Source of the DNA: Halichondria panicea
Taxonomy: Eukaryota; Porifera; Demospongiae; Suberitida; Halichondriidae
Reading direction: 5' to 3'
DNA: 64,000 nt
NCBI RefSeq assembly: GCF_963675165.1
Contig: NC_087386.1
Location: 6,454,066 to 6,518,065 of the forward strand
Each line of letters starts with the position of its first letter. Position 1 is the first letter of the stretch. The notes beneath the pieces are model-generated. The model had not been told where the DNA came from, did no database searches, and saw nothing but the letters and a program-made list of their open reading frames with translations. Of the stretch, positions 15,401 through 63,600 are shown one piece after another. Made by a program: the position numbers and the translations under genes.

Positions 15401-18400
15401 GAAATGAAATGTGTATCCCCTGACACTGATTAGTGTAGATAGTCATGTGATATTGTATAATGAGAATAGTTGGATGGCATTGCACTTCGCTCTGCACTAG
15501 AACGCTAGCTATTGGTAGCTGCAAGGCTCTGCTGACTTGCAACCATTAATTTTAGACTTGAACTTTGGCATCGATCATTTTTAACAAAAATCATCGTCGA
15601 TCATTAGAGTTTCCCTGTGATTCTAGATTATGCATGCAGCAAAATTAAACATGTTCTCATAATCAGGGGCGGATCCAGGAATTTTGAAAAGGGGGGGGCA
15701 AGTTTGAAGAAAATGTTTACTACAAAAAATGTCAACAGTTTTTTTAAGCCCAGCCAGTGTGATTATGGATTGATTGATGACAGTATGACATACATAGTAG
15801 CAGGAGATAGCAGAAATGGATGGAATCATCTTGCTCTTCAGCTTCAAAAGTCTACAACTAGAGATCGTCTGCTGTTCTACATGTGCAATAATTGATTGCT
15901 GCTCTAAGTCACACCCACTTCATGAGCTAGTTTTATTCGAGCTGGTCAGAAAGGGGGTGCACGTGCCCCTTGTGCCCTGCACTGGATCCGCCACTGATAA
16001 TTGTAATCAATGTGTGTATAAAAGCTAGCTTAATTATATGTAGCTTTGGCACCTCCACCGAGGCATCAGCGCTTTCATTGGTTTTGTTGTACAAACACAT
16101 TTCCCACAACATGCTGTTTACATTGTTTTCCTCCATGTACAGTTTGGACGGACCCCTCTTAGGACAGCCAGTGTTAGTGGTCACCAAAAATGTATGGAGC
16201 TCCTAATCAATGCTGGGGCCAATGTTGATATACCCAATAAGGTGAGTGTAAGTAGCTTTATATACACACATCTCAGAGGCCACTAGCCACAGAGCCTCCC
16301 CATGTTCTGTTGACCTGGTTCATTAGACACCAGAGCTAGTCATGTTTGTGTAGAGAGCACTCAGAGAAGGTCCGACAAACTGTGCGCCTAACATTAATTT
16401 TTGCTGGATCAGCATTTTCATATAACTTGCCTTTAGATGCTTTAGAGGTACGTGTAGACTTAGTCCTCTGTCTTGTATTGTTAGGTCTAGTTTTAGTAAT
16501 AGGAGCTCTAAACTCTTTCAATAACATCTGTATAAAGACAAATTTAGCAAATTTTAATTCTAGGCGTACGGTTCTCGGACTTCCTCTGGAGAGCACTGGT
16601 AGTTGGTGTATCCCCTGACATTAGTGTAGATAGTCATGTGATATTGTATAATGAGAATAGTTGGACGGCATTGCACTTTGCCATGGTTGGTAGTTAGCTC
16701 TGCACTAGAACGCTAGCTATTGGTAGCTGCAAGAGTGAGAAGAGAGCTGCAAGGCTCTGCTGACTTGCAACCATTAATTTTAGACTTGAACTTTGGCATC
16801 AATCATTTTTAACAAAAATCATCGTCGATCATTAGAGTTTCCCTGTGATTCTAGATTATGCATGCAGCAAAATTAAACATGTTCTCATAATCAGGGGCGG
16901 ATCCAGGAATTTTGAAAAGGGGGGGGCAAGTTTGAAGAAAATGTTTACTACAAAAAATGTCAACAGTTTTTTTAAGCCCAGCCAGTGTGATTATGGATTG
17001 ATTGATGACAGTATGACATACATATAGTAGCAGGAGATAGCAGAAATGGATGGAATCATCTTGCTCTTCAGCTTCAAAAGTCTACAACTAGAGATCGTCT
17101 GCTGTTCTGCATGTGCAATAATTGATTGCTGCTCTAAGTCACACCCACTTCATGAGCTAGTTTTATTCGAGCTGGTCAGAAAGGGGGTGCACGTGCCCCT
17201 TGTGCTCTGCACTGGATCCGCCACTGATAATTGTAATCAATGTGTGTATAAAAGCTAGCTTAATTATATGTAGCTTTGGCACCTCCACCGAGGCATCAGC
17301 GCTTTCATTGGTTTTGTTGTACAAACACATTTCCCACAACATGCTGTTTACATTGTTTTCCTCCATGTACAGTTGGGACAGACCCCTCTTTGGACAGCCA
17401 GTGATAGTCATCTCCAAAAATGTATGGAGCTCCTAATCGATGCTGGGGCCAATGTTGATATACCCGAAGAGGTGAGTGTAAGTAGCTGTGTACATACATC
17501 TCAGAGGCCACTAGCCACAGAGCCTCCCCATGTTCTGTTGACCTGGTTCATTAGACACCAGAGCTAGTCATGTTTGTGTAGAGAGCACTCAGAGAAGGTC
17601 CGACAACCTGTGCGCCTAACATTAATTTTTGCTGAATCAGCATTTTCATATAACTTGCCTTTAGAGGTACGTGTAGACTTATTCCTCTGTCTTGTATTGT
17701 TAGGTCTAGTGCTCTAAACTCTTTCAATAACATCTGTATAAAGACAAATTCAGCAAATTTTAATTCTAGGTACGGTTCTCGGACTTCCTCTGGAGAGCAC
17801 TGGTAGTTGGTGTATCCCCTGACATTAGCGTAGATAGTCATGTGGTATTGTATAATGAGAATAGTTTGACGGCATTGCACTTTGCCATGGTTGGTAGTTA
17901 GCTCTGCACTAGAACGCTAGCTATTGGTAGCTGCAAGAGTGAGAAGAGAGCTGCAAGGCTCTGCTGACTTGCAACCATTAATTTTAGACTTGAACTTTGG
18001 CATCAATCATTTTTAACAAAAATCATCGTCGATCATTAGTAATAACTGATGGAGATTATAGCTTTGTTGGGAGAAGTAGGATTGAGTGTAAGTAGCTGTA
18101 CACACATCTCAGAGGCCATTAGCCACAGAGCCTCCCCATTTTCTGTTGACCTGGTCCTTTAGACACCAGAGCTAGTCATGTTTGTGTAGAGAGCACTCAG
18201 AGAAGGTCCGACAACCTGTGCGCCTAACATTAATTTTTGCTGAATCAGCATTTTCATAGCTGGTCCAGTTGCTGTGATATATAATTATATGGTTTATGGT
18301 CTATAACAGAACAACCAGACAGCTCTGCATGTAGCCAGTAGACATGGACATGATGAGATAGTGAGGGTCCTCTGCTGTGACATTAGTGTAGATAGTCATG

Positions 18401-44294: not shown

Positions 44295-46491
44295 GTGAGG
44301 GAGGATGATCAACTGGCACATTGTAGTATATATTCGCACGCACAATATGAAACCGACCCTCCTGCTACCTCTAAATATGAAACCGACCCCCCTGCTACCT
44401 CTAAATATGAAAGCGACCCTCCTGCTACCCCAAGATACGAAACCGACCCCCCTGCTACTTCTAAATCGAAACCAATCCCCTTGCTACCCCTGAATACAAA
44501 ACTATCTGTAGCTACCAAATGGATCTGACAAAGAGGCTCTCTAATTGCTTCCAATATGTAGCTAAATACTTACATCAGAGTGGAGCACTGACTGACATAC
44601 AATACCAGATAATCATCAGGCATAGAGACGGTGCTGAGAAGCTCATGGAGATTATTGTTGTTGGCATCAAAGACCCAGACACCACATTGGATGCTTTTGC
44701 CGACTTTGTGAGAGCAATGAAACGAAGTGGGAACAAATTCTTGCAAACATTTGTCAGAGAAAAAATTGAATCGAAACGAAAACAGTTGTATAGAGAATTG
44801 CTCACAGTTCCACCAGGTATGTGGTATAAATAGTTAATGATGATATGATCATGTTGATTTCCCATATTCACAGGTTTCCGAGCATCTCAGGAATACGACG
44901 TCTTCATCAGCTACAGTCGTGAGGCTGACACTATGCGCACAGTCGACACTCTTTTGCGCCCTCGACTAACACAAGAAGGCCTCACTGTGTTTGTAGACAG
45001 AGATGGCGTTCGTCCTGGGGACAGATGGCGATCTGAGATTGCCTCCGCTATCAAAACCTGCAAAGCCTTTGTTTGCTCACTAAATGCTACGTGAAGTCCG
45101 TGTACTGCAACGGAGAGCTGTACGAAGCAGTGGCTCTTGACAAGCGACTGTTCCCAGTGGTGTGTGAGCATGGTTGGGGAGATGTGCCTGGAGGTGCTCC
45201 TGTGACGGAGGTGGTACAAGAGGTTCAGTTAGTGTCGCTAGTAGCAGAGGACAGGGAGACACAACTGACAAGACTGGTCCAAAGTATCAAAGGTCAGTCA
45301 TTGCATTGCAATCACTCTCATAGTGTTACTGAACTTATTTTGAAGTACTTTGATGATATCATTATTCATTTTGCAGAAACTGTGGCACCTTTATTACCTG
45401 TTGCAGTAGCTCCAGGCTCGTCTAATCTACCCACCGACCATGCAGGCTGGTAAGATGATGCTATATTTACTTGTTATTGTTGGTGCATAATGTGTTATTA
45501 TCCCTCATGCAGGTCCCTCGTCCCCTGTAATGGAAGGTGTGTGTAAGAAGACTGGAGTGAGTGATCAACAACTAGATCAATAAATCCCTGAGAGTGACAT
45601 CATTCTATTAGCGGAGAAATTTCCTCACCTACTGAGCGTGCACAAGGTAGACAGTACATATAAATTATATATGCAACTTGTTGTCCTGACATTTTGGTGA
45701 GAAGAGAAATGGTGTTCATGTGTATGGGGGATTGATGACATGTATCTAGAGGGTTCGGGGTATGCCCCCAGGAACTCATTACTACCTGCTATTAAGAATA
45801 TTGTTCACCAGAACCACTCAATTGTATTCCCATCGAGTTTCTTCTAGAAGGTATTTCCGAGGCAACTCCCACCAAATATAACCCTGTTGATTGTTGCTTT
45901 TGTACAGGCTTTGACAATTAACGATCTGCAACATGTTTACGAGAAACTACACACTGCACATGAAAGTGCCAGCCCTCACTGGTTCAATCTGGGATTGGCT
46001 CTAGGTCTGACTCATTTTATTCTCACCAATATCGATAGCAAGCATCATGGTGATAATGTGTCATCATTGCGTGAAATGTTGGCTGAGCTCCTGCGTACGA
46101 AAGATGTAACATGGAGTCTCCTGTCAGATGGTCTCAAAAAGCCCACGGTGGAGCTCATCAATTTGGCTGATAGCGTCACAGGTAACCATTTTCAGTGTTT
46201 ATGCATATGGTATATACGTACATTTAACGTCATTTTATCTTTTTTCTTTGCACAGCCACAACTCCTAACCTGCTCGATCGACTCAACCTCACCCCAGCCG
46301 ACCTCGGTGATGTAACTGATGTCACACGTCGTTATGGCAATCAAGCTGGAGTGGATTATGCATTGAGAGTGTGGCAAAGAGTGAATCCTTCCAGAGCTAC
46401 CTTCAGGGCCTTGGTGGAAATTGCCATAGGACTGAGAAGAGGAGACACTGCTGTAGACATTTGTAGATTTATTGTAAAGGAACTAAACTGA
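44295..46491 (+). CDS. CARD-like / TIR / Death / Death signalling protein (frame-damaged)
   Basis: Domain order: proline/threonine-rich linker, CARD-like helical domain, TIR domain, short linker exons, and two Death-fold domains. Candidate exons: up to 44,816; 44,874-45,292; 45,377-45,449; 45,513-45,646; 45,908-46,181; 46,256-46,491 (TGA). Borders agree in phase for linker-CARD to TIR (phase 1) and between the two Death exons (phase 1). The combination is that of a cytosolic innate-immune or cell-death adaptor. Damage: one base off in the linker near 44,465, one base off in TIR near 45,073, and a TAA in the fourth exon. The 5' start is not certain. Possible polyadenylation signal AATAAA at 46,735-46,740. 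It is either a pseudogene or a gene with residual sequence errors. Confidence 0.7.
44330..44816 (+). CDS. Proline-rich linker plus CARD-like domain exon
   Basis: The linker carries four near-perfect copies of a ~10-residue unit (KYETDPPATS). It is followed by a ~95-residue all-helical domain from 44,519 (LTKRLSNCFQYVAKYL, DGAEKLMEIIVV, LDAFADFVRAMKRSGN). The pattern LT..Q...I....DGAEKLM..I and the buried FADFV helix fit a CARD. A close paralog lies at 62,650-62,964. The donor after CCACCAG is gtatg. Confidence 0.65.
44874..45292 (+). CDS. TIR domain exon
   Basis: Opens in phase 1 from the CARD exon: GFRASQEYDVFISYSREAD (box 1 type YDVFISYS). It continues TVDTLLRPRLTQEGLTVFVD and RDGVRPGDRWRSEIASAIKT (box 2 region with DRDGVRPGD). 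After KAFVC the frame slips by one base near 45,073 and resumes LLTKCYVKSVYCNGELYEAV. The Glu in the YCNGELYEA helix corresponds to the position of the catalytic Glu in NADase-active TIRs; activity is not implied. Ends at SIKG before gtcag. Confidence 0.8.
45377..45646 (+). CDS. Two short linker exons, the second with an in-frame TAA
   Basis: Exon 45,377-45,449 (ETVAPLLPVAVAPGSSNLPT ...) is a low-complexity linker. Exon 45,513-45,646 reads MEGVCKKTGVSDQQLDQ, TAA, then IPESDIILLAEKFPHLLSVH. The part after the stop looks like the first helices of a Death domain, so the stop probably replaced a sense codon. The border between the two exons is ambiguous. Confidence 0.5.
45908..46181 (+). CDS. Death domain exon
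   Basis: ALTINDLQHVYEKLHTAHES ... WFNLGLALGL ... LREMLAELL ... TWSLLSDGLKKPTVELINLA. The six-helix Death-domain pattern with the conserved Trp in helix 5 (TW..L...L) is clear. It starts at phase 0 after tgtacag and ends at phase 1 (ACAG, then gtaacc). Related to the Death domain at 50,615. Confidence 0.75.
46256..46491 (+). CDS. Terminal Death-fold exon
   Basis: LLDRLNLTPADLGDVTDVTR, GVDYALRVWQRVNPSRATFR, ALVEIAIGLRRGDTAVDICR then FIVKELN and TGA at 46,489-46,491. The alternation of hydrophobic helices with W..v.p..ATFRALVEI fits a Death domain. It joins the previous exon in phase 1. Confidence 0.7.
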
Positions 46492-50229: not shown

Positions 50230-50970
50230 ATGGGGATCACAGTGGAGTTGTGGAGAGCTCGCATTGGGCAGTTCAGTGGTGGGAGGGGATCACGACCACA
50301 CAGTAAAGCTCCCTCGACAAAACAGCCTCTACACTTCAGTGATACAGTGGGTACTACTGCAAAAGTTGTTCAAGGAGGCTTGCTTTTATTGTTAATTCTC
50401 AAGTTTCTGAGTTCTCACGACAAATCACTTTTGCTAAAACGCACAAGAAATGCTGGTCTCCTGATGATTGCCATTGTTGGGTTGGTCCACTCTCTTGCCC
50501 ATCTCTTGCTGCTAGCTGGAGACATTGAGAGCAATCCTGGGCCACAAATGGGTAAGTTGTATGATTTATATTGTGAAGGTGGATGTTTCTAAATTTTCCA
50601 TATTATTGTTACAGACGAAGTTCTGGCTCTCCATGAGCATCTAGAGGACGCTTACAGCAAGCTGTTCAAGGCTCGTACAGAATGGTTCAATATTGGGCTA
50701 ATTCTAGGTGTCGATGGCAAGACTCTTACTGCTATCCGCCAGGAGCATTCTAGTAACCATGGTGACTGTCTCCGAGATATGTTGGCTCATCGTATCAAAA
50801 CAATGGATTCACTCACTTGGGGAGATCTGTGCAAGAGTCTTAGACATGTCACAGTAGGACGCAGTGATGTGGCTGATGAAATCGAAGCAGGTATTTTTAG
50901 TACAGGTATAGCTGAACCTCTCCAACAAAAATGTGTCAGTATATGGCACTCGTTTGTTTGTGATATCTGA
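50230..50970 (+). CDS. Hydrophobic leader / 2A-like motif / Death-domain protein
   Basis: Exon 1 is 50,230-50,551, exon 2 is 50,615-50,970 (TGA); they join in frame as QM-DEVL, giving 225 residues. Residues 1-48 are basic and Ser/Gly-rich. Hydrophobic segments lie at about 49-60 and 76-95. Residues 96-105 are AGDIESNPGP, a full match to the D-x-E-x-N-P-G-P 2A-like consensus with a leucine run in front, as in active 2A peptides. Ribosome skipping would separate residues 1-104 from a product starting at Pro105. The rest is a Death domain (LEDAYSKLFKARTEWFNIGL, LRDMLAHRIK, LTWGDLCKSLRHVTVG). The intron lies two codons after the 2A. A phase-1 donor-like GCAG|gtattt near 50,891 matches the donor in the related Death exon, so a longer spliced form is possible. 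2A-like leaders are known from sea-urchin NLR proteins and non-LTR retrotransposons; function here is inference. Confidence 0.75.
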
Positions 50971-51039: not shown

Positions 51040-51045
51040 AATAAA
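51040..51045 (+). terminator. Polyadenylation signal of the 2A/Death-domain gene
   Basis: AATAAA, 70 bases after the TGA at 50,970. A closely related string (tcgttgtcaaataaaaatg) occurs at about 63,937-63,956. Confidence 0.6.
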
Positions 51046-51229
51046 AGCGAGCAAAAGCTGAACTTGCACGTTGACTGCATGGCTAGCTAGATCTAGCTAG
51101 CTATACACGCCGCTTTTATTCGAGGTACGTATTTTCAGCTGTTTTATTTCTTTTTCCCTAAGACTCCTAGTCTCAAAGCTAGACTCCTCCCTAGGGGTCA
51201 AGTTCCTATGTGTGAAACTCATGTTAGAA

Positions 51230-51374
51230 GTCCACGAATTTCTTGGACTGGTATAATTAACCGCACAGGACGTGCATGCCCACTATCTGCCATGAACATG
51301 ATCCTTATATTCATGACTAATTGTGGGCGTGTATGTCTTGTGCGGTTAAATTACCGTTCAAGAAATTCGTGGAC
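51230..51374. repeat. Inverted repeat (~52-bp arms)
   Basis: gtccacgaatttcttggac at 51,230 pairs with the reverse complement ending at 51,374. The arms extend through the taattaaccgcac block with a few mismatches and a ~40-base spacer. Probably a small foldback element in non-coding DNA. Confidence 0.7.
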
Positions 51375-51450
51375 TTTTAACAGGCGTTTCATTAGAGGAA
51401 CACTTAACCAGACTATCTCTATATCCCCTAAGTAGGAGCAAAAGTGCATA

Positions 51451-52325: not shown

Positions 52326-52584
52326 GACAACCAGACAGCTCTGTATGCAGCCAGTAGTCATGGACATGATGAGATAGTGAGGGTCCTCTTAGCAGCCAAG
52401 GCTACAGTCAACACTGAGGACAAGGTTAGTTTTGTTGTACAAACACATTTACCACAACATTGATGTATGCGCATGCATGCAGGATGGACAGACCCCTCTT
52501 TACATAGCCAGTTACATTGGTCATCAGAAATGTATGGAGCTCCTAATCAATGCTGGGGCCAGTGTTGATGTGACCACAGAAGAG
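52326..52584 (+). CDS. Ankyrin exons C and D of gene 2
   Basis: C 52,326-52,424 (DNQTALYAASSHGHDEIV). D 52,483-52,584 is 102 nt (DGQTPLYIASYIGHQKCM, ending VDVTTEE). The intron between them is 58 nt. The intron after D is interrupted 11 bases past the donor by a 765-bp element. Confidence 0.85.
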
Positions 52585-55500
52585 GTGAGTGTAAGCATAG
52601 ATTGAAAAGGAAGGGGATTGGAAACGACCAGGCCTCCCTGTGTAAATGGTTGAAACACTCCGCGTTATGATTTCGCGCTCGCGATTATTTTTGTTTTGAC
52701 CGTACTCTGGTTGTATTTCAACTGTTTCTAGCTCTCCTATCCACTAGCGATCACTCAGAGGCTGGGAGGTTACTCTAGAGAAGTAAGTTTACACCACTGA
52801 CAAGCTCTAACTTGTCTAAGTCCGCTGTCTTTACTCTGTTTTTAGTTTTTGTTGAGTATAGCTTGAATTACTCCATGTCAACTTTTCTCTTTCCCTGCTG
52901 CAAAGCCTAAACAGCAAAAGACATTGCTTGACTTGGTTATTATGTATCTAAGTGCTATATAGAATGGTTTCATGCCATGGATAAGCTTTACTGTTCATAA
53001 ACGTTTGCAGTATAGTCCTTCAAACTGCTTTAATATACTTTTAGACACACCACGGGCCTTAACCTCTCACGACTTCATAGTAAGGGCTGTTCCTTCTTTT
53101 ATAGCATTTATTTGTTTAGTGATAGTGGTTGCGTTGCTTAGTCGACCTTTTAGAGCTATATTCTCTTTACTTTTTAGAATATTCAACATTAAAAGTGATC
53201 AATTTCACCATTTCTATGTACAGCACATTGTATGGCAGCCAAGACAGGTAATGAGCATGCTGATTATAAAATAATCCCTTGTAGTTTTAGCCACACCCTA
53301 TAACGCGGAGTGTTTCACGCAAAAATTTTCGTTTCCAATCCCCTTCCTTTTCAATCTATGGTGTAAGTAGCTGTACACACGTCTTATAGAGATCACTATA
53401 GCCTATACAGAGCCGTCCCATGCATGTTCTGTTTACCTGTGTTGCTGGCACCAGAGTTAGTCACATGTTTTTGCATGTAGAGAGCACTGGTATAGTTGTG
53501 TATGATGTAAATGTATAGTCACGTGATTGCCTTGAGGCGTAGCCGCACGAAGGATACGGTAAAGCTGACTGTGTAGTTCTACGGTGGCCCTGAGCACTAC
53601 TAGTAGTTTACCTTAGCTACTTGATAGTTCAACTACCTTAGCTACTTTGAAGTTGACCTTTGAACTGTATGTTAATGCTGCTGTAGCCATGCTCTACATA
53701 GCGACTAGAGATCAATAATGAGAGCTACATATATATATACAGGTACTGAGGATTATCTGCAGCCGGTCAGTTCTACCCTATGGGTAACAACAATGCAAGA
53801 CGAGAGTACCACACTTGATTCATTTGGAAGTTACATGTTATTCAACAAAACTATAGTCTAATAGCTTGGGGGCAAATCAATAGGATTAGGATACCACTTT
53901 CTCCTCTTCCCCTTCCCCTCCCCCTCTGAGAAAAGGTCTGGCCACCATGCAGACTAATACAATACATGCAGTTCAAGTTCTCTGTGTATCTATAGGTCTA
54001 TGCCTAATCCACAATTGCAGCACAAGAATTCTGTCTATACAATGGTTCTGGTGTGGTACTCTCGTCTTACATTGCTGTTAGATAATCCTCAGTACCTGTA
54101 TACATATGTAGCTTAGTCTCGAGTTCCAGCCAGTTCTCATTGTAAGCGTGGGAGGGAGAGAACCATCTGGTGACTCTGGGGGCAGAGCGTTCTGTCAGTC
54201 AGGAATGTAATCATCCTGTTAACCAGGTGGATAATAACCCACAATTAGAACTGTGTATTCTCGAAGCTATCTTATATTCTTGTGGGTAAGGCTCCAATGA
54301 ATATACTCTACCAACATTCTGTCCGACGACAGATGCCCAGAGTCACCAGACGGTTCTCTCCCTCCCACGCTTACAATGAGAACCAGCTGGAATTCGAGAC
54401 TAATATGTAGCTCTCATTATTGATCTCTAGTCGCTATGTAGAGTATGGCTACAGTAGAATTAATGTACAGTTCAAAGGTCAACTGCGAAGTAGCTATAAG
54501 GTACTTGAACTATCAAGTAGCTAAGGTAGGTAAACTATCAAGTAGCTAAGGTGAACTACTATAGCTAGTAGCACGCTCAGGGCCACCATATTCAAAATGA
54601 GTTAGTAAAGCGCTAGCCTCGAGACCAGGCTGATTAATTAAAATACGGCCTGGTCTCTATTGCATGGATGATAGTGCACATGCGCGAACTGAGTTACCCA
54701 GAATCTGGGTAACTCGTTATACTTTAGTAAACCTTTGGAAAATTATACCATAAACTAGTTTGTTTACTACTTTCTTTCCGTATTAATTTTAACAAATACT
54801 TGTCTCCGGTGAAGCCGTGGCTTATGCTCTCTATTGCCTTGTCGAGAAGACTTGCTGGCTAGCTGTGGCCCTCTATGGTGTTGTTGAGAAAGAACATATT
54901 AACTACGCTGCAATGAAGGCATCCAAAATCCTGAACCTACTAAGGAGGAACCTCCACCACTCTTCTAAGACAGCCAAATCTAAAGCCTACACTGGACTAG
55001 TCCACCCTAACCTGGAGTATGCAGCTCCAGTTTGGTCTCCGCACAAAGTGTGCGACATCAGTAATCTGGAAAAAGTGCAGAAAAGGGCAGCAAGGTGGAT
55101 AGGGGCCAAATGGAATAGAACACAATGGGACAAATCTTACGAGGAGTGTGCAGACATAATCTCAACTGGCTCACCCTGACTAAACGTCATGAGTTTCTAA
55201 TCTGCTGTCAGACATTTAAAATAATGAACAAAATGGATTGCCTCCAATTCTCGGATTTTTACTCCTTCAATACTTTAAACACTCGTTCTCATAGTCTTTC
55301 TTTAGTTTGTAAATACGCTAGTTTAAATAGCTATAGATTTTCTTTTTTTGTTAATAGTATTTTCCTGTGGAATTTGTTACCCGCTACAATTGCTTACAGT
55401 TGTTCGTATAGTATTTTTAAATCTAACCTTAAGACTTACTTTTTTAATAGTTTTCTAGTTTTTAGCCTTTTAAAATGTCTTGGTTTGTTTGTTCTGTTCT

Positions 55501-58500
55501 TGTTGTTTGCTTTTTGTTTTGTTTATTTATTTGTTTGTTTGTTTGTTTGTGTAATGGGGAGCACCTTTGTAAGGCAATATTGCCTATGTGTGACCCTTTC
55601 CCCTAGCTGTGGATAAATTTATTCAATTCAAGAAGGCTTGCACACTAGTCTGAAGCCAGAAGAATTAAGCTCTTATTTGTACAGAAACCAAGTTCAAAAC
55701 ATCACGACCATCCAACCATCATAGAGGTAGATGAGAGCCTATTCTGGTTTCAGACTAGTGTGCAATTAAGCCTTCTCGACAACACCATAGAGTGCCACAG
55801 CTATAGCTATAGCTAGCTAGGCTATAAAGCTTCATATTATCAAGGGCGTATGAATAGAAGAGGGCATGCAACTACAATCTATCGTATTACAAATGGGCTT
55901 GCAGTTCTCTTCTTACTCTTGCAGCTACCAATACTAAGCGTTCTATAGTGCAGAGCTAACAACTACTAAGTAGAGTATACCAGAACTCGGTGAACAAGTT
56001 TTGCTACGCAGTCTTCTGAAAAGGCTGCAATGGCATTCCAAGTAAGCTAAACTAGGCATAACTCGAGAACGAAGCATTATTTTGCAAATCCACGAATTAT
56101 AATTCAAATAAACATGACTAGAAGCCTATAATTATATAGAAATCTTTACTTGCACTTGATTGATCCTTGAGCAGCTGTAGCAGTTTACACAGACACCCAG
56201 ACACACAAACACACTACCGTATACCTCGCTTGCGCATTTGTATCAAGGCATAATTATCTGTGCTAGTATATAGATATGTTATGTAGATTTGACACATCTA
56301 CCAAGGCATCAGCACCCGCGCATTATATAATGAGTGGGTCTGTGATGATTGATGGTTCACCTGCTCACACTATCTTCTCTGTACAGGATGGAGCCACTGC
56401 ATTGTATGTAGCCGCTCAGAATGGTCATGTGAGGGCAGTTCAAGTGTTAATCGTGGCAAAGGCTCAAGTGAACATTCAAAAGACGGTGAGATTTACTACT
56501 TGGGTGCTATTATAATTATTTGGGTGTGTATAGGATGGTTGGACAGCATTGCACATTGCCAGTCAGGAGGGTCACTGTGAAATTGTTAGAATGTTGTTGG
56601 AGGCCAAAGCTGACGTCAACATCAAGACTACTGTGAGTCACGCCGCATGGTGGTGTTTGTGTACCTTGCTGATTCCATGGTTGAGTGTGTGTACTGTCAC
56701 CTCTGTATGTATGACTGCATGGAAGTCACTCAGTATAGTTGTATTGTCAACTTGGTGTTCTGTACTTGAGCTTTGCTAGTTGAGTCTTCGCTAGTTAGTG
56801 ACCTTTTGTTGGTAACATGCGGAGACTATAAATGACAAGCAACTTGTAAGAATAGCTAGCTAACCAGCCACTAAAGTGAAGTAAGAAAAAATGCTGATGT
56901 GACTAGTGAACCTGTTGACATAGATCTGCATGTCTGGTATTCACTGTGCATGCAATCTTCATCACTTATTGGGCTGCTCTCACATTGTCATATTCTTTCA
57001 CATTATAATGCAGAACATGAAATTGCTATATTTCTGTACAACTTGTCGATCTAGTTGTTAATTAATTAAGGTTACGGTAAACTAGATGTAGCAGCTAAAA
57101 TGAGTTAGAGTCCAGCTGAAACGCAGTAGTCATTTCATGGCTCGAATCGACTTTTTTACTGGGTATATAGCTTAGGTATACAGTCTACTGTAGCTTCACT
57201 ATATGCAGGGCGGCTCGAGGATATATTTTAAAAAGGCTATACCAAAAGGCTGTTTTCCTTGGCTCAGACCACCATTTACTATTATTTTGTGAGAGTTTTT
57301 TGGCCTGGAAAGAAGAAAAGCCTTGTGAGCTGCCCTCCAGAATGGTAAAAAGCATTGTATAAGAGCAAGAACACAGAGCTAGATATACTAGACATATTTT
57401 TCGAGGGTATTAATTTCTGCTATTTCTGCGAATGATAGTAAAATCATGTATACCCGCAGATAATTGGGATAATGCACTTGTGAGTAATTAGAAATGCTGT
57501 TGATTTTACAATTGAGCCTCGGCAGAATTTAATACATGCAAATTTGACAAATCTACCTGTAAAATATGTAACCTGAAGGTATTTATCACGTATGTGCTTC
57601 AAACTCTGAATTTATAGTTTCATGGGAATATTCATGAGCGAACAGTTTATGCCTATAATTTCTAAGGATAATATTATGGTGTAGTGCTGTGTACAGCTTG
57701 GATCTTGCTATACATGGCTGCTAGCACTTAGCAGATACTTCAATGCAGGTTGCATGCATGGTTTTGTTGCATTTCTCACAACATTATTTACACAGTTGGG
57801 AGCGACCCCTCTTTGGGCAGCCAGTTTTCATGGTCAACAGAAATGTATGAAGCTCCTAATCGATGCTGGGGCCAATGTTGATGTACCCAATGAGGTGAGT
57901 GTAAGTATAGCTGTACACACATCTCAGAGGCCACTAGCCACAGAGCCTCCCCATGTTCTGTTGACCTGGTCCATTATATATAGACACCAGAACTAGTCAT
58001 GTTTGTGTAGAGAGCACTGGTGGTTGGTGTATCCCCTGACATTAATGTAGATAGTCATGTGATATTGTATAGTGAGTGGGTCTGTGATGAGTGATGGTTC
58101 ACCTGCTCACACTATCTTGACTCTGTACAGGCTGGAGCCACTGCGTTGAATGTAGCTGCTCAGAGTGGTCATGTGAGGGCAGTGGAAGTGTTGATTGCTG
58201 CAATGGCTCAAGTGAACATTCAAGTGAAGGTGAGATTTACTGCTTGTCTGCTTAAAAGTATTTGGATCTGTACAGAATGGAGCCACAGCATTGTACATGG
58301 CCAGTCAGAATGGTCATTGCGGAATTGTTAGAATGTTGTTGGAGGCCAAAGCTGATGTCAACATCAAGACTACTGTGAGTCACGCTGCATGCATGGTGGT
58401 GTTTGTGTACCCTGCTGATTCCATGGTTGAGTGTTGTGTGTACTGTCACCTCTGTATGTATATGACTGCATGGACCGGGGCGTGCAGGGGAGGTGCTTTG

Positions 58501-61500
58501 GGCACCCCCACCTGACTCTACTTAAAGCTTACTTAAAGATCCAGTTGAGCTCAGCACTCCAGATTTAGCTTGTTAGCTGCATACTGAACTAGATAATCTA
58601 GCTATTCACCTAAGAGAGTAGTTTTTAGTTAGTAGTTGGACTCGAGTTATGAAAGAATTTGTTGATTTGCATGCTGGTTTTAAATTTTAAACTGCATGGA
58701 AGGTCACAGAGGGTTCAGCTATTCACTTCCTGCATGCATGGGTGGAGCTATATTTGTATGTAGGCTTCTCTATGCATTGGGCCATGCCCAACTATGCAGA
58801 TGATGTCACTAATAAGAGGTGTGGTTTCTGGTCAACCAAATTTCGGCACTGCGCGGCTGAAAATTAGGCGCTTTGCACCATCTTTTATTTATAAAAACAC
58901 CCCCTTCTCCAAAATCCTGGCTACGCCCCTGATGGAGGTCACTCAGTATAGTTGTATTGTCAACTTGGTATTCTGTGTACTTGAGCTTCGCTAGTTGAGT
59001 CTTCGCTAGTTGGTGACCTTTTGTTGGTAACATGCGGAGACTATAAATAACAATAAGAATAGCTAGCTAACCAGCCACTAAAGTAAAGTAAGAAAAGATG
59101 CTCATGTGACTAGTGAACCTGTAGGCGTAGATCTGCATGTCTGGTATTCACTGTGCATGCAACCTTCATCACTTATTGGGCTGCTCTCACTTGTCATGTT
59201 CTTTCACATAATTATAATGCAGAACATGAAATGGCTATATTTCTGTACAACTTGTCGATGTAGTTGTTAATTAATTAAGGTTACGGTAAACTAGATGTAG
59301 CGGCTAAAATGAGTTAGAGTCCAGCTGAAACGCAGTAGTCATTTCATGGCTTGAATAGACATTTTTACCATAAAGCTTAGGTATACAGTCTACTGTAGCT
59401 TCACTATATGCAGGGCGGCTCGAGGATATATTTTGAAAAAAGGCTATACCAAAAGGCTGTTTTCCTTGGCTCAGACCACCATTTACTATTATTTTATGAG
59501 AGTTTTTTGGCCTGGAAAGAAGAAAAGCCTTGTGAGCTGCCCTCCAGAATGGTAAAAAGCATCGTATAACAGCAAGAACACAGAGCTAGATATACTAGAT
59601 ATATTTTTCGAGGGTGTTAATTTCTGCTATTTCTGCTAATGATAGTAAAATCATGTATACTCGCAGATAATTGGAAAATGCGATTAAAATCACTTGTAGA
59701 AAACGCTGTTGATTTTATAATTGAGCCTGCGCAGAATTTAATACATGCAAATTTAACAAATCTACTTGTAAAAATATGTAACCTGAAGGTAGTTAATCAC
59801 GTATGTGCTTCAAACTCTGAATTTATAGTTTCATGGGAATATTCATGAGCAAACAGTTTACGTCTACAGTAGACTCTCGTTAATCCGGTCACCCTTGGGA
59901 CCATGCAGCTTGGCCGGAATAGCGAGGTGGCTGTATTTCGGGAAATAGCCGCAGCTTAAAAACGACCTTACCTCGAATCTAATGACTAATTTTGCGGTTC
60001 TTGTCTCGAGGATAATGAAGGATAATGAATCATTCTGTTCTCTCTTTAAGTGTAATCCTTGCTAAACCACACCCAAAACGCCATATCTGGCCATAATACA
60101 CGTATAAAATTACATTGAAAACCTTGAAAGCACTGGTATACGGAATAGCGAGTGGCCGTACTTCAGGGTGAGTTTTGTGCAGTAAACATAATTATAGCTA
60201 GCATTCCGTGCCAAACCAAATGGCTGGTATATCGAGGTGGCCGTACTTCAGAGAGCCGGAATAGCAAGAGTCTACTGTATAATCCCTAAGGATAATATTA
60301 TGGTGTATAGTGCTGTGTACAGCTTGGATCTTGCTATACATGGCTGCTAGCACTTGGCAGATACTTCAATGCAGGTTGCATGCATGGTTTTGTTGCATTT
60401 CTCACAACATGCATTTACACAGTTGGGAGCGACCCCTCTTTGGGTAGCCAGTTTCAATGGTCAACAGAAATGTATGGAGCTTCTAATCAATGCTGGGGCC
60501 AATGTTAATGTATACCCAATCAGGTGAGTGTAAGTAGCTGTACACACATCTCAGAGGCCACTAGCCACAATGATGAGTGATGGTTCACCTGCTCACACTA
60601 TCTTGACTCTGTACAGGGATACACTGCGTTGTGGGTAGCTGCTCAGAATGGTCATGTGAGGGCAGTGGAAGTGTTGATTGCTGCAATGGCTCAAGTGAAC
60701 ATTCAAGCGAAGGTGAGATTTACTGTTTGTCTGCTTAAAAGTATTTGGATCTGTACAGGATGGAGCCACTGCATTTTACGTGGCCAGTCAGAATGGTCAC
60801 TGTGGAATTGTTAGAATGTTGTTGGAGGCCAAGGCTGACGTCAACATCAAGAATAATGTGAGTCACGCTGCATGCATGGTGGTGTTTGTGTACTCTGCTG
60901 ATTCCATGGTTGAGTGTGTGTACTGTCATCTCTGTGTATGAGTGGACTGAGTAGTGGAGAGTGTACAATTAGCTGGTCCAGTTGCAGTGATATATAATTA
61001 TATGGTTTATGGTCTATAACAGAACAACCAGACAGCTCTGCATGTAGCCAGCAGTAATGGACATGACGAGATAGTGAGGGTCCTCTTAGCAGCCAAGGCT
61101 ACAGTCAGCACTCAGGAGAAGGTTGGTTTTGTTTTACAAACACATTTCCCACAACATGCTGTTTACATTGTTTTCCTCCTATGTACAGTCGGGACGGACT
61201 CCTCTTTGGACAGCCAGTTTTAGTGGTCAACAGAAATGTATGGAGCTCCTAATTGATGCTGGGGCCAATGTTGATGTACCCAATGAGGTGAGTGTAAGTA
61301 GCTGTACACACATCTCAGAGGCCACTAGCCACAATGATGAGTGATGGTTCACCTGCTCACACTATCTTGACTCTGTACAGGATGGAGCCACTGCGTTGTA
61401 TGTAGCTACTCAGAATGGTCATGTGAGGGCAGTGGAAGTGTTGATTGCTGCAATGGCTCAAGTGAATATTCAAGCGAAGGTAAGATTTACTGCTTGTCTG

Positions 61501-62964
61501 CTTAAAAGTAATTGACTGTGTACAGAATGGAGCCACTGCATTGCACATTGCCAGTCACAACGGACAATGTGAAATTGTTAGAATGTTGTTGGAGGCCAAG
61601 GCTGACATTCACAGCAGGGATAATGTGAGTCACGCTGCATGATGGTGTTTGTGTACTCTGCTGATTCCACGGTTGAGTGTGTGTACTGTCACCTCTGTGT
61701 ATGAGTGGACTGAGTAGTGGAGAGTGTACAATTAGTTGCTGTGTGCGTGTCATAGTGAGTAATTATAATTTGGCAAAGGAGGAAATTGAACTATTATTTG
61801 CGATGTTTAATATTTATCACATGCGATATACTGCAAGTTAGCAATTAATGTTTTGGCGACCCTCACCTTGAATCGCCAATTTGTCGCCAAATTTACCCGC
61901 TTTTATGGTCTATGACAGAACAACAGGACAGCTCTGAATGCAGCCGGTAAGAATGGACATAATGAGATAGTGAGGGTCCTCTTAGCAGCCAAGGCTACAG
62001 TCAACACTCAGACCAAGGTTGGTTTTGTTGTACAAACATATTTACCACAGCATGCTGTTTACATTATTTTACTTGTGATCCGTATGCTCTCACCGAATTT
62101 CTTAAACTGCATTCATTAAGCCATCCGATATAAGTTTCTGAGCTCTTCTCTGTTTTGAGCATGCAATGTATGGAATTCGATTGCAAATGCAGCAAACAAT
62201 CTTCTATAATACAAGAAGCATGCTTAGCACAGCTCAACGTGCAACATTCATTGGTTTTAAGATATCTTGAAAACATGCTGCACAAAGTCAACATTACACA
62301 TTGCATGTAATATCCCCCCTCACTGCAGATGACTACTGTTACCCCTGAATGCAAAGCCAACTCCCCCGCTACCCCTGAGAACCCCCCTGCTACCCCCTCT
62401 GCTACCCCTGAGAGCCACCCTGCTACTCCCTCTGCTACCCCCTCTGCTACCCCTGAGAGCCCCCCTGAGAGCCCCCCTGCTACCCACTCTGCTACCCCTG
62501 AGAGCCCCCCTGAGAGCCCCCTGCTACCCCCTCTGCTACCCCCTCTGCTACCCCTGAGAGCCCCCCTACTACCCCCTCTGCTACTCCTGCGAACCTCCCT
62601 GCTACCAAAGCCATCTCCTCTGCTACCCCTGAATACGAAGCCATCTGTAGCTGCAGAGTGGAGTTAACCAAGAAGCTCTCTGCGTGCTTCAAAGATGTAG
62701 CTGAATACTTACGTCAGAGTCAATCACTGACTGACGACCAATTCCAGACAATCATTGGCATCCAAAATTCTCAAGACGGTGCTGAGAAGCTTATGGATAT
62801 GATCATTGTCGACATCAAAGAGCCAACAACCACATTGGATGCTTTTGCCGACTTAGTGACAGCAATAAAAAACAGTGGTAACAAACACTTCCAAACGTTT
62901 GTCAAGGAAGTAATTGAATCGAAACGAAAAGAGTTCTATAGGGAATTGCTCACAGTTCCACCAG
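52326..62964 (+). CDS. Ankyrin-repeat gene 2 running into proline-rich linker and CARD-like domain
   Basis: A second series of one-repeat exons of types A, B, C and D, all plus strand and phase 0-0, followed by an exon that starts in the same frame after ctgcag at 62,329 and encodes a proline-rich linker and a CARD-like domain. Exons are listed in the cassette entries. The start is not evident, and the last donor (62,965) predicts a further exon beyond the window; by analogy with 44.8 kb it could be TIR. The D exon at 60,423 is 101 nt and the linker has a one-base slip, so part may be non-functional. The proposed role, by domain content, is an ankyrin-type receptor or scaffold coupled to a CARD effector. 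Confidence 0.65.
52596..53360. mobile_element. 765-bp MITE inserted 11 bases past a splice donor
   Basis: Terminal inverted repeats CATAGATTGAAAAGGAAGGG and its complement, extending about 65 bp with mismatches to the ctccgcgttat block. Flanked by GTGTAAG on both sides (52,589-52,595 and 53,361-53,367), a 7-bp duplication. The empty form, gtgagtgtaagtagctgtac, is present after many D exons in this window. An internal 100-codon open frame (52,972-53,274) has hydrophobic stretches but no recognised domain; I do not call it a gene. Confidence 0.9.
53583..54587. mobile_element. Compound foldback: outer stem enclosing two inner hairpins
   Basis: The outer arms, ggtggccctgagc at 53,583 and its complement ending at 54,587, extend inward ~165 bp to gagagctacatat. 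Within them, one hairpin runs from about 53,741 (caggtactgaggattatc) to 54,101, and a second from 54,114 (ttagtctcgagttccagcca) to 54,402. The interior is non-coding. The arrangement is a three-stem (cloverleaf-like) palindrome, about 1 kb in total. Confidence 0.8.
54811..55800. mobile_element. MITE family 3 copy split by a LINE
   Basis: The left end (gtggcttatgctctctattg) at 54,811, and a second left-end-like copy at 54,850-54,890, are separated by a LINE fragment from the right end (aagaaggcttgcacactagt) at 55,630-55,800. The same family lies in the B-C introns of gene 1. Confidence 0.6.
54896..55616 (+). pseudogene. LINE reverse transcriptase C-terminal fragment
   Basis: AMKASKILNLLRRNLHHSSK, then LVHPNLEYAAPVWSPH, KVQKRAARWIGAKWN, and after a one-base slip near 55,165 LNWLTLTKRHEFLICCQTFK and YRFSFFVNSIFLWN. 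This is the standard thumb and C-terminal region of CR1/L2/jockey-type ORF2. 5'-truncated and frame-broken. The 3' tail has a tttg-repeat and ends near aataaatttattcaattc. Confidence 0.8.
55801..56386. other. Intronic stretch with diverged interspersed repeat
   Basis: Positions 55,880-56,260 are a diverged copy of the long interspersed repeat, like 240-600 (agctaccaata, taactcgagaacgaagc, CA-rich tract, cgcttgcgcat). The rest is the standard pre-A intron. Confidence 0.55.
56387..56632 (+). CDS. Ankyrin exons A and B of gene 2
   Basis: A 56,387-56,485 (DGATALYVAAQNGHVRAVQ, ending IQKT). B 56,534-56,632 (DGWTALHIASQEGHCEIV), with a 48-nt intron between. The B acceptor is tatag rather than tacag. 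Confidence 0.85.
56720..57900 (+). repeat. Segmental duplicate of 58,937-60,530, first copy
   Basis: From gtcactcagtatagttgtat through the D exon at 57,796, this ~1.2 kb is repeated from 58,937 with many small differences. The second copy additionally holds the MITE at 59,867. The interior of this copy (56,780-57,740) is non-coding. Confidence 0.85.
57796..57894 (+). CDS. Ankyrin D-type exon of gene 2
   Basis: 99 nt, LGATPLWAASFHGQQKCM, ending NVDVPNE. The His of GHQ is Gln. Donor gtgagtg. Confidence 0.85.
58131..58374 (+). CDS. Ankyrin exons A and B of gene 2
   Basis: A 58,131-58,229 (AGATALNVAAQSGHVRAVE ... AAMAQVNIQVK). B 58,276-58,374 (NGATALYMASQNGHCGIV ... VNIKTT), with a 46-nt intron. 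Confidence 0.85.
58475..58931. mobile_element. 457-bp CAG/CTG-type insertion with ATGGA duplication
   Basis: ATGGA flanks both sides (58,470-58,474 and 58,932-58,936). The uninterrupted sequence gactgcatggaagtcactca is at 56,710. Left end CCGGGGCGTGCAGGGG, right end CCTGGCTACGCCCCTG: imperfect inverted repeats like the element at 13,804. No coding capacity. Confidence 0.85.
59867..60277. mobile_element. Tigger/pogo-like MITE, second copy
   Basis: 411 bp, CAGTAGACTCTCG ... GAGTCTACTG, flanked by TA. The duplicate at 57,645-57,665 shows the empty site (cctataatttctaagg) against tcta...tataatccctaagg here, so the insertion is later than the segmental duplication. Confidence 0.9.
60423..60523 (+). 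pseudogene. Frame-shifted D-type ankyrin exon
   Basis: Starts LGATPLWVASFNGQQKCM, but near its end two extra bases (gtatacccaatcagg) make it 101 nt, so splicing to the next phase-0 exon would break the frame. It can be skipped without harm because neighbours are phase 0-0. Confidence 0.75.
60617..60857 (+). CDS. Ankyrin exons A and B of gene 2
   Basis: A 60,617-60,712 is 96 nt, lacking the first Asp codon (GYTALWVAAQNGHVRAVE). B 60,759-60,857 (DGATAFYVASQNGHCGIV ... VNIKNN) is 99 nt. Confidence 0.85.
61023..61624 (+). CDS. Ankyrin exons C, D, A, B of gene 2
   Basis: C 61,023-61,121 (NNQTALHVASSNGHDEIV), D 61,189-61,287 (SGRTPLWTASFSGQQKCM), A 61,381-61,479 (DGATALYVATQNGHVRAVE; donor gtaag), B 61,526-61,624 (NGATALHIASHNGQCEIV). 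All are 99 nt. The D-A intron is only 93 nt, far shorter than in the other cassettes. Confidence 0.9.
61919..62017 (+). CDS. Last ankyrin exon (C type) before the CARD exon
   Basis: 99 nt, NNRTALNAAGKNGHNEIV ... TVNTQTK, acceptor tatgacag, donor gttgg. The following ~310-base intron ends at ctgcag, 62,328. Confidence 0.85.
62329..62964 (+). CDS. Proline-rich linker plus CARD-like domain exon, gene 2
   Basis: Opens MTTVTPECKANSPATPENPP after ctgcag in the frame left by the ankyrin exons, then runs through repeats of the type PPATPSATPES. At a run of five C near 62,515 the frame slips by one base and resumes correctly as SATPANLPATKAISSATPEY and then the CARD-like domain from about 62,658 (LTKKLSACFKDVAEYL, DGAEKLMDMIIV, LDAFADLVTAIKNSGN). 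Closely related to 44,330-44,816, with the same donor after CCACCAG. Confidence 0.65.
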
Positions 62965-63600
62965 GTATGTGATAAGGGTAAATGGTGATAATCTATTATC
63001 ATAGTTGATGTAATTACAATGCTAGAACAAGTTCTAATTCCACTTCTGAGTGGCGCATCATCTTTTAAATTGCGTTTAGCCCAGCTGGCGTTATGTTCCA
63101 CATGCTGCTAGTATAATTATATAGACATTAGAGAACTCAGTTTCACTTGCTAGCTAGCTGACACGTGAAAACTACATTTAGGATATCCCTACCAGTGGAG
63201 TACAACAGTTGCCTAGGACACAGGTGATATACATAGGACAACCTCACATGCATATCTAGAGCTGCTCTTTGATGTGTCTGCATACACATAACAAAGCACC
63301 GTTTGACGGTGTAGCTATATATATATATAATATGGATCATGCAGACAACTGTTCAAAAGTGTGAAGGGAAGTCGACCTAGCTAGCGCTAAAAAAAACAAC
63401 GGTATATAGAGAGTCCTTCCAGATGGATATATCACCAGCTATATATATAGCTACCATGACTGTACAAGCTAGCTAGCTCATTGATAGCTAAATGTTTCAC
63501 TAAATAATAAATAACCTTCGCAAAAAGCGCTTCAATTTTGTACAAAAACCTGCAGTTGAGCATGCGCTTAAAATAAAGATACGCTTATAATCGAGTAAGC
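62965..63600. other. Presumed intron after the CARD-like exon
   Basis: No TIR-like or other exon is recognisable before the window ends. AT-rich, with gctagctagct runs. Confidence 0.4.

Follow-up and report, generated by a model that had tools for sequence, protein, structure and literature searches.

The closest precedent for the gene described here is the 2A signal sequence of sea-urchin NLR proteins, which showed about 80% skipping in cell-free translation, none after a Pro-to-Ala change and reduced skipping after changes to the hydrophobic tract (PMC4981915). According to the same report, the sequence serves dual targeting: the unskipped form was found mainly in the Golgi, and the amount of reporter in the medium was ∼15% for the wild type versus 44% for the Pro-to-Ala control. 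2A-like sequences were counted in 85 of 241 urchin NLRs, and a later NCBI set of 87 had 14 (PMC4981915). In PMC12846837, ribosome skipping is presented as commonly viral and its cellular use as rare. Sponges have putative membrane-bound NLRs with predicted transmembrane segments, and Death-NACHT-LRR types exist (PMC12909245); the word "recoding" is absent from the main text of that report, and "sponge" from the main text of PMC4981915, PMC12846837 and PMC11512398. None of the matches listed in our literature search dealt with 2A in genes of sponges or in Death-domain genes.

The putative membrane-bound sponge NLRs are said to go back to Yuen et al. 2014, given as the cited source, and 2A-like sequences were reportedly described in APE-type non-LTR retrotransposons by Odon et al. 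2013. A survey of 2A peptides in viral and cellular proteomes is likewise attributed to Rao et al. 2025; because it may already list the present proteins, we state their novelty with caution.

We analyzed a 64-kb stretch of DNA (the window) from a 131-Mb sponge genome, in which the gene of interest lies on contig C10. The leader exon (50230..50551, + strand, 322 nt) runs from an ATG to a phase-1 donor and contains 107 full codons plus one base, its end reading NPGPQM-G. The predicted 2A-like motif DIESNPGP (50521..50544) ends two codons short of the exon end, with the predicted skip between Gly104 and Pro105. A 63-nt phase-1 GT-AG intron (50552..50614, GTAAGT...TTACAG) separates it from exon 2, which can be read to a TGA (50615..50970, stop at 50968-50970). 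Reconstructed from the sequence, the two exons join in frame across the intron into 225 residues, so that the reading continues downstream of the motif. The first-pass annotation had placed an exact-consensus AGDIESNPGP at residues 96-105, and rebuilding the gene confirmed the position (A96-G97-D98-I99-E100-S101-N102-P103-G104-P105). It had also described a leucine-rich hydrophobic run before the motif, and this holds as well: the best 19-mer, at residues 77-95, has a Kyte-Doolittle mean of 2.41. This run belongs to a hydrophobic stretch at residues 75-97 (50452..50520), a candidate for both a signal anchor and the upstream part of the 2A element.

The sea-urchin leader shares with the window a hydrophobic N-terminal run and G-D-V-E-x-N-P-G-P (tested as GDVETNPGP) and stands before immune receptors, whereas the window leader has ∼104 residues versus 26, an extra conserved N-terminal element and its own phase-1 exon (PMC4981915). 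A further difference is that a Death-like exon follows the leader and that no NACHT was found in the window; tblastn of a NACHT region from contig C14 against the window gave nothing at E 1. The core D(V/I)ExNPGP is also that of viral 2A/StopGo elements (PMC12846837), and the window AGDIESNPGP carries this core, D-(V/I)-E-x-N-P-G-P, with the preceding Gly.

Set against the rare cellular use given in PMC12846837, the motif was found at 116 chromosomal places. The pattern D-x-E-x-N-P-G-P matched 116 sites in the genome compared with 1 for a reversed-pattern control; two complementary patterns completed the list (45 + 71), and all 116 sites were fetched and translated, in sets of 102 and 14. Among 150 order-2 Markov simulations of the window, read in six frames, D.E.NPGP had no match, and NPGP alone occurred 39 times summed over the simulated windows. 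A chance origin of the motif was rejected on the simulations (0/150) and the genome control (1 versus 116). Neither residue 2 nor any flanking position was specified in the search; residue 2 was V (91) or I (25) at all 116 sites, Gly preceded the motif at 115, and Leu occupied position –5 at 113 sites and position –6 at 110. As the pattern prompted neither V/I at residue 2 nor Gly at –1, the known 2A consensus was recovered independently. The codons at the fixed positions vary synonymously (Gly: GGA 73, GGG 19, GGC 13, GGT 11; Asn: AAC 71, AAT 45), and the variation spans leader classes that BLAST does not link to one another at E 1e-4. Single-linkage BLAST clustering at that threshold gave classes of 53, 30, 9 and 4 leaders, three pairs and 14 singletons. 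Five of the singletons are retrotransposon-like, and three are copies on contig C2 that probably belong to the C2 type, since no more than 12 residues upstream of their motif are open.

A profile search found a Death-like exon downstream of the motif at 82 of the 116 sites (72/102 and 10/14 in the two sets). At the other 34 sites the profile supported no Death exon within the stretch examined; they comprise nine of a class on C6, C10 and C12, seven retrotransposon-like sites, six of the C2 class, in which no Death exon was seen within the 1.5 kb examined, and twelve mixed sites, at least two of which have a NACHT domain downstream. To the eye, the nine-copy C6/C10/C12 class has a half Death-like exon right after NPGP; our Death profile gave no match in the nine copies and Pfam none in the three scanned, and the class was left out of the Death count. 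Among the 72 Death-positive loci of the first set, the splice donor pattern was matched in 59, always in phase 1, and a phase-compatible AG acceptor followed in 55 of these. Five of the 13 loci with an unmatched donor pattern are window-class copies, four from C5 and one from C13, in which GTAAG has become GTAAT, so some copies may not splice. Given that every donor found was in phase 1, the leader mostly behaves, by its predicted boundaries, like a modular exon whose end is fixed just past the motif.

On contig C14, leaders of this kind accompany NACHT sequences of NLR type. The complete locus of one of them (L098) reads leader, Death-like exon and a 1065-residue frame with a NACHT domain (Pfam E 1.6e-20); leucine-rich repeats are visible by eye in that frame, and Pfam listed none at E 0.1. 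The C14 genes thus resemble the urchin arrangement of leader and motif followed by NACHT-LRR (PMC4981915), an arrangement found in these relatives and not in the window gene. With the NACHT region of L098 as query, 31 NACHT matches were listed in C14 below 1.7 Mb, and 30 of these have the exact motif upstream on the same strand within 10 kb (29 within 4 kb; two share one motif). The remaining match is preceded by GNVEANPGP, a D-to-N variant. The fraction 30/31 covers every listed NACHT match in that region, 119 of 259 candidates having been scored, and the figure of 36 of 47 NACHT places describes a selected set, made up of the whole C14 cluster and of others chosen by hand, rather than a genome rate.

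We then considered what exon 2 encodes. An in-frame Death exon past the intron had been annotated, and the joined frame and profile support for a Death-like domain (about 50617-50886) uphold this, while a direct Pfam match was lacking: exon 2 itself had no PF00531 match and did not reach the Pfam cut-off for the Death domain, and phmmer of the window protein against the PDB gave no Death domain. Of the 19 aligned members, 8 matched PF00531 with E values no higher than 0.1, the best being 3.3e-11, and FADD and PIDD Death-domain chains headed the PDB list for a profile built from the 19 members (best E 4e-5), although both outcomes may be carried by the most canonical members. A single-sequence AlphaFold model has six helices but a poor mean pLDDT of 56.5, and in Foldseek nothing matched this model below E 0.001; a Death-domain chain came 15th, at E 1.4. 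A Death-like identity of exon 2 is thus supported through its relatives and their profile.

Where exon 2 ends on its 3′ side is uncertain. A donor-like junction, CAG|GTATTT, lies at 50890/50891, and CAG|GT is present at the matching position in 5 of 7 aligned paralogues. Similarity among eight aligned copies ends near ADEIE, the read-through tail departs after AGIF in the closest neighbor (90% identical), and two copies on C10 meet a stop within seven residues when read on. Given the junction in the paralogues and the differing tails, the TGA at 50970 may be intronic. Three close aligned paralogues have a second Death-like exon further on (two on C5, one on C10). A candidate polyadenylation signal, AATAAA, read directly in the sequence at 51040..51045, favors a short gene. 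The annotated length of ∼120 residues for the Death protein is consequently not established, in view of the junction and the divergent tails. Nor is its status as a free adaptor, considering the ambiguous exon end, the second Death-like exons and the NLRs with a like leader; the window product can be read in two ways, of which a free death adaptor is one.

We propose that the gene belongs to a large, expanded innate-immunity set of Death-domain genes and Death-NACHT-LRR receptors whose active-looking 2A (StopGo) leader exon would cause skipping and direct the products of each mRNA to two locations, and we give this reading a probability of roughly 75%. Over a hundred copies exist, most of them before immune-receptor and death-domain genes, and this placement suggests membrane-bound and free forms from one message. 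On the sequence, the leader exon ends a few codons past NPGP at a phase-1 intron, which allows an in-frame join to the Death-like exon. Once the hydrophobic stretch and GDIESNPG occupy the exit tunnel, the Gly104–Pro105 bond would not be made, as suggested by the exact consensus and a tested urchin leader of like design. The leader would be released and the ribosome would continue, so that the Death protein or NLR would be cytosolic and begin with Pro. If the sea-urchin NLR leaders are a guide (PMC4981915), an unskipped fraction would keep the leader and enter the secretory or membrane system, and skipping efficiency would set the proportions in which one mRNA serves the two locations. On these comparisons, ribosome skipping at the leaders is very likely and dual localization of the products plausible. 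The targeting of the window leader cannot be taken for granted, as it is ∼104 residues long against 26 in the urchin and has two hydrophobic stretches (around residues 39-62 and about 74-97); a 19-mer hydropathy of 1.6 was reached by 72 of 113 leaders in the 30 residues before the motif.

Homologues of the window leader were found at 42 places, and 18 of them, the window included, span the full 107 residues at 82-100% identity. Seven residues after the start Met lies the element WRARIGQF (50251..50274). The pattern WRARIG.[FY] occurs at 33 sites genome-wide (the window and 32 other places; control 0), close to the start Met and in the otherwise differing leaders of two BLAST classes. Across 17 intact window-class copies, the leader as a whole had a pN/pS of 0.38, with 0.32 in codons 1-48, 0.44 in the hydrophobic part and 0.16 inside the motif, the last value being partly fixed by the choice of loci. 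From these patterns, the leader looks like a maintained protein rather than a spacer. The same data give some weight to an account with full skipping and no dual targeting, in which 2A does no more than free the leader, the leader itself carries the function, and Death proteins or NLRs stay in the cytosol throughout: constraint on the first 48 codons is no weaker than on the hydrophobic part, an element is common to two classes, neither of which a mere targeting spacer would need, and the urchin element already skips at ∼80% (PMC4981915). We regard this account as unlikely, though the strongest of the alternatives, given that the ∼15% of urchin wild-type reporter in the medium means that some fused product entered the secretory path. 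The hydrophobic stretch of the window leader, moreover, occupies the position of a signal anchor.

A second alternative is that the leader is a signal or anchor sequence only, with NPGP incidental and no skipping. The hydrophobic stretch is present, as this would require, and the phase-1 boundary after the leader fits too, such boundaries being common among signal-sequence exons. The retention of the motif speaks against it. Because the motif loci were chosen by the motif, conservation of D, E, N, P, G and P among them is no evidence, and the WRARIG set served as a motif-independent sample. Of the 33 leaders, 26 are open from the Met to the motif position, and all 26 keep the motif; seven are broken by stops or frameshifts, and five of these have lost it (C5:3029570, C5:2702657, C5:2648840, C4:4050708 and C15:970511; retained in C13:4031031 and C5:3080211). 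Fisher's exact test gives 8.8e-5 for intact versus broken, an optimistic value owing to shared descent, since the copies are paralogues and neither the counts nor the test are independent evidence. That all intact copies keep the motif and most broken ones have lost it points to selection on the motif at the amino-acid level, as far as the paralogues can indicate. The excess of sites over the control and the presence of G-D-(V/I)-E-x-N-P-G-P in leader classes with no detectable similarity are also difficult to reconcile with an incidental NPGP, and we consider this alternative very improbable.

Marginally weaker still is the idea that the leaders are leftovers of retrotransposons, pieces of non-LTR ORFs trapped next to Death exons. 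Among the 116 sites, seven carry the same motif and do look like APE-type non-LTR elements, but BLAST at E 1e-4 gives no link between their leaders and the immune leaders, and a phase-1 boundary recurs among the immune copies, whose pN/pS is below 1. A distant origin of the immune leaders from such an element is possible. As observations on the non-LTR-like loci (L012, L014, L016, L028, L071, L015 and L110), six show a PHD-like cysteine pattern after the motif and L110 was assigned by its leader only; one scanned PHD-pattern site was confirmed by Pfam (PF03372, PF14529 and PF00628), and L012 has an APE-type endonuclease frame past the 2A motif.

Returning to skipping with two destinations per message, a Death-like exon follows the motif at 82 loci, and 30 of the 31 listed NACHT matches of one NLR cluster go with it, against a background of rare cellular use. 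If working, it would provide a simple rule for the membrane/cytosol split of a domain that alarms or kills cells, and a cleavable 2A leader may explain part of the "membrane-bound" NLR predictions. The leader families form a natural series for measuring skipping efficiency. More tentatively, and with less than even confidence, ribosome skipping might act as a general layer in the expression of innate-immune genes: at the head of several Death and NLR families, a phase-1 "2A exon" would set the membrane/free split through its skipping efficiency, and the released leader with its conserved WRARIGx(F/Y) start would be a second functional product.

The surroundings of the gene contain further features. 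Just 3′ of it, at 51213-51391, are two nested inverted repeats (43 nt, 79% complementary, and 36 nt, 89%) that resemble a small foldback element, part of which also trails the copy at C10:6527117. A second Death-like frame lies at 45848 (+) (E 1.9e-20 with our profile); the window scan showed no D.E.NPGP close to it. Ankyrin-repeat exons flank the gene on both sides (1498-35970 and 52335-61535, + strand); 26 of 27 regex matches are on the + strand and six frames were confirmed by Pfam. A continuation of the gene into the ankyrin exons at 52.3 kb was not adopted, as such exons also lie upstream in the window and an ankyrin motif scan found none in the 7.4-kb and 6.0-kb stretches of two paralogues, starting ∼1.5 kb past the motif. 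Near-identical ankyrin matches at 18319, 19707, 24112, 26083 and 30312 suggest tandem duplication. Together with the Death and NACHT places of the genome, the ankyrin and CARD frames of the window point to an animal. Frames at 54793-55613 (+) resemble the end of a non-LTR reverse transcriptase by eye, with no Pfam match. Finally, a CARD domain (PF00619, 27.8 bits against a cut-off of 23.9) lies at 62514-62969 (+) and is possibly the end of an ankyrin-CARD gene.
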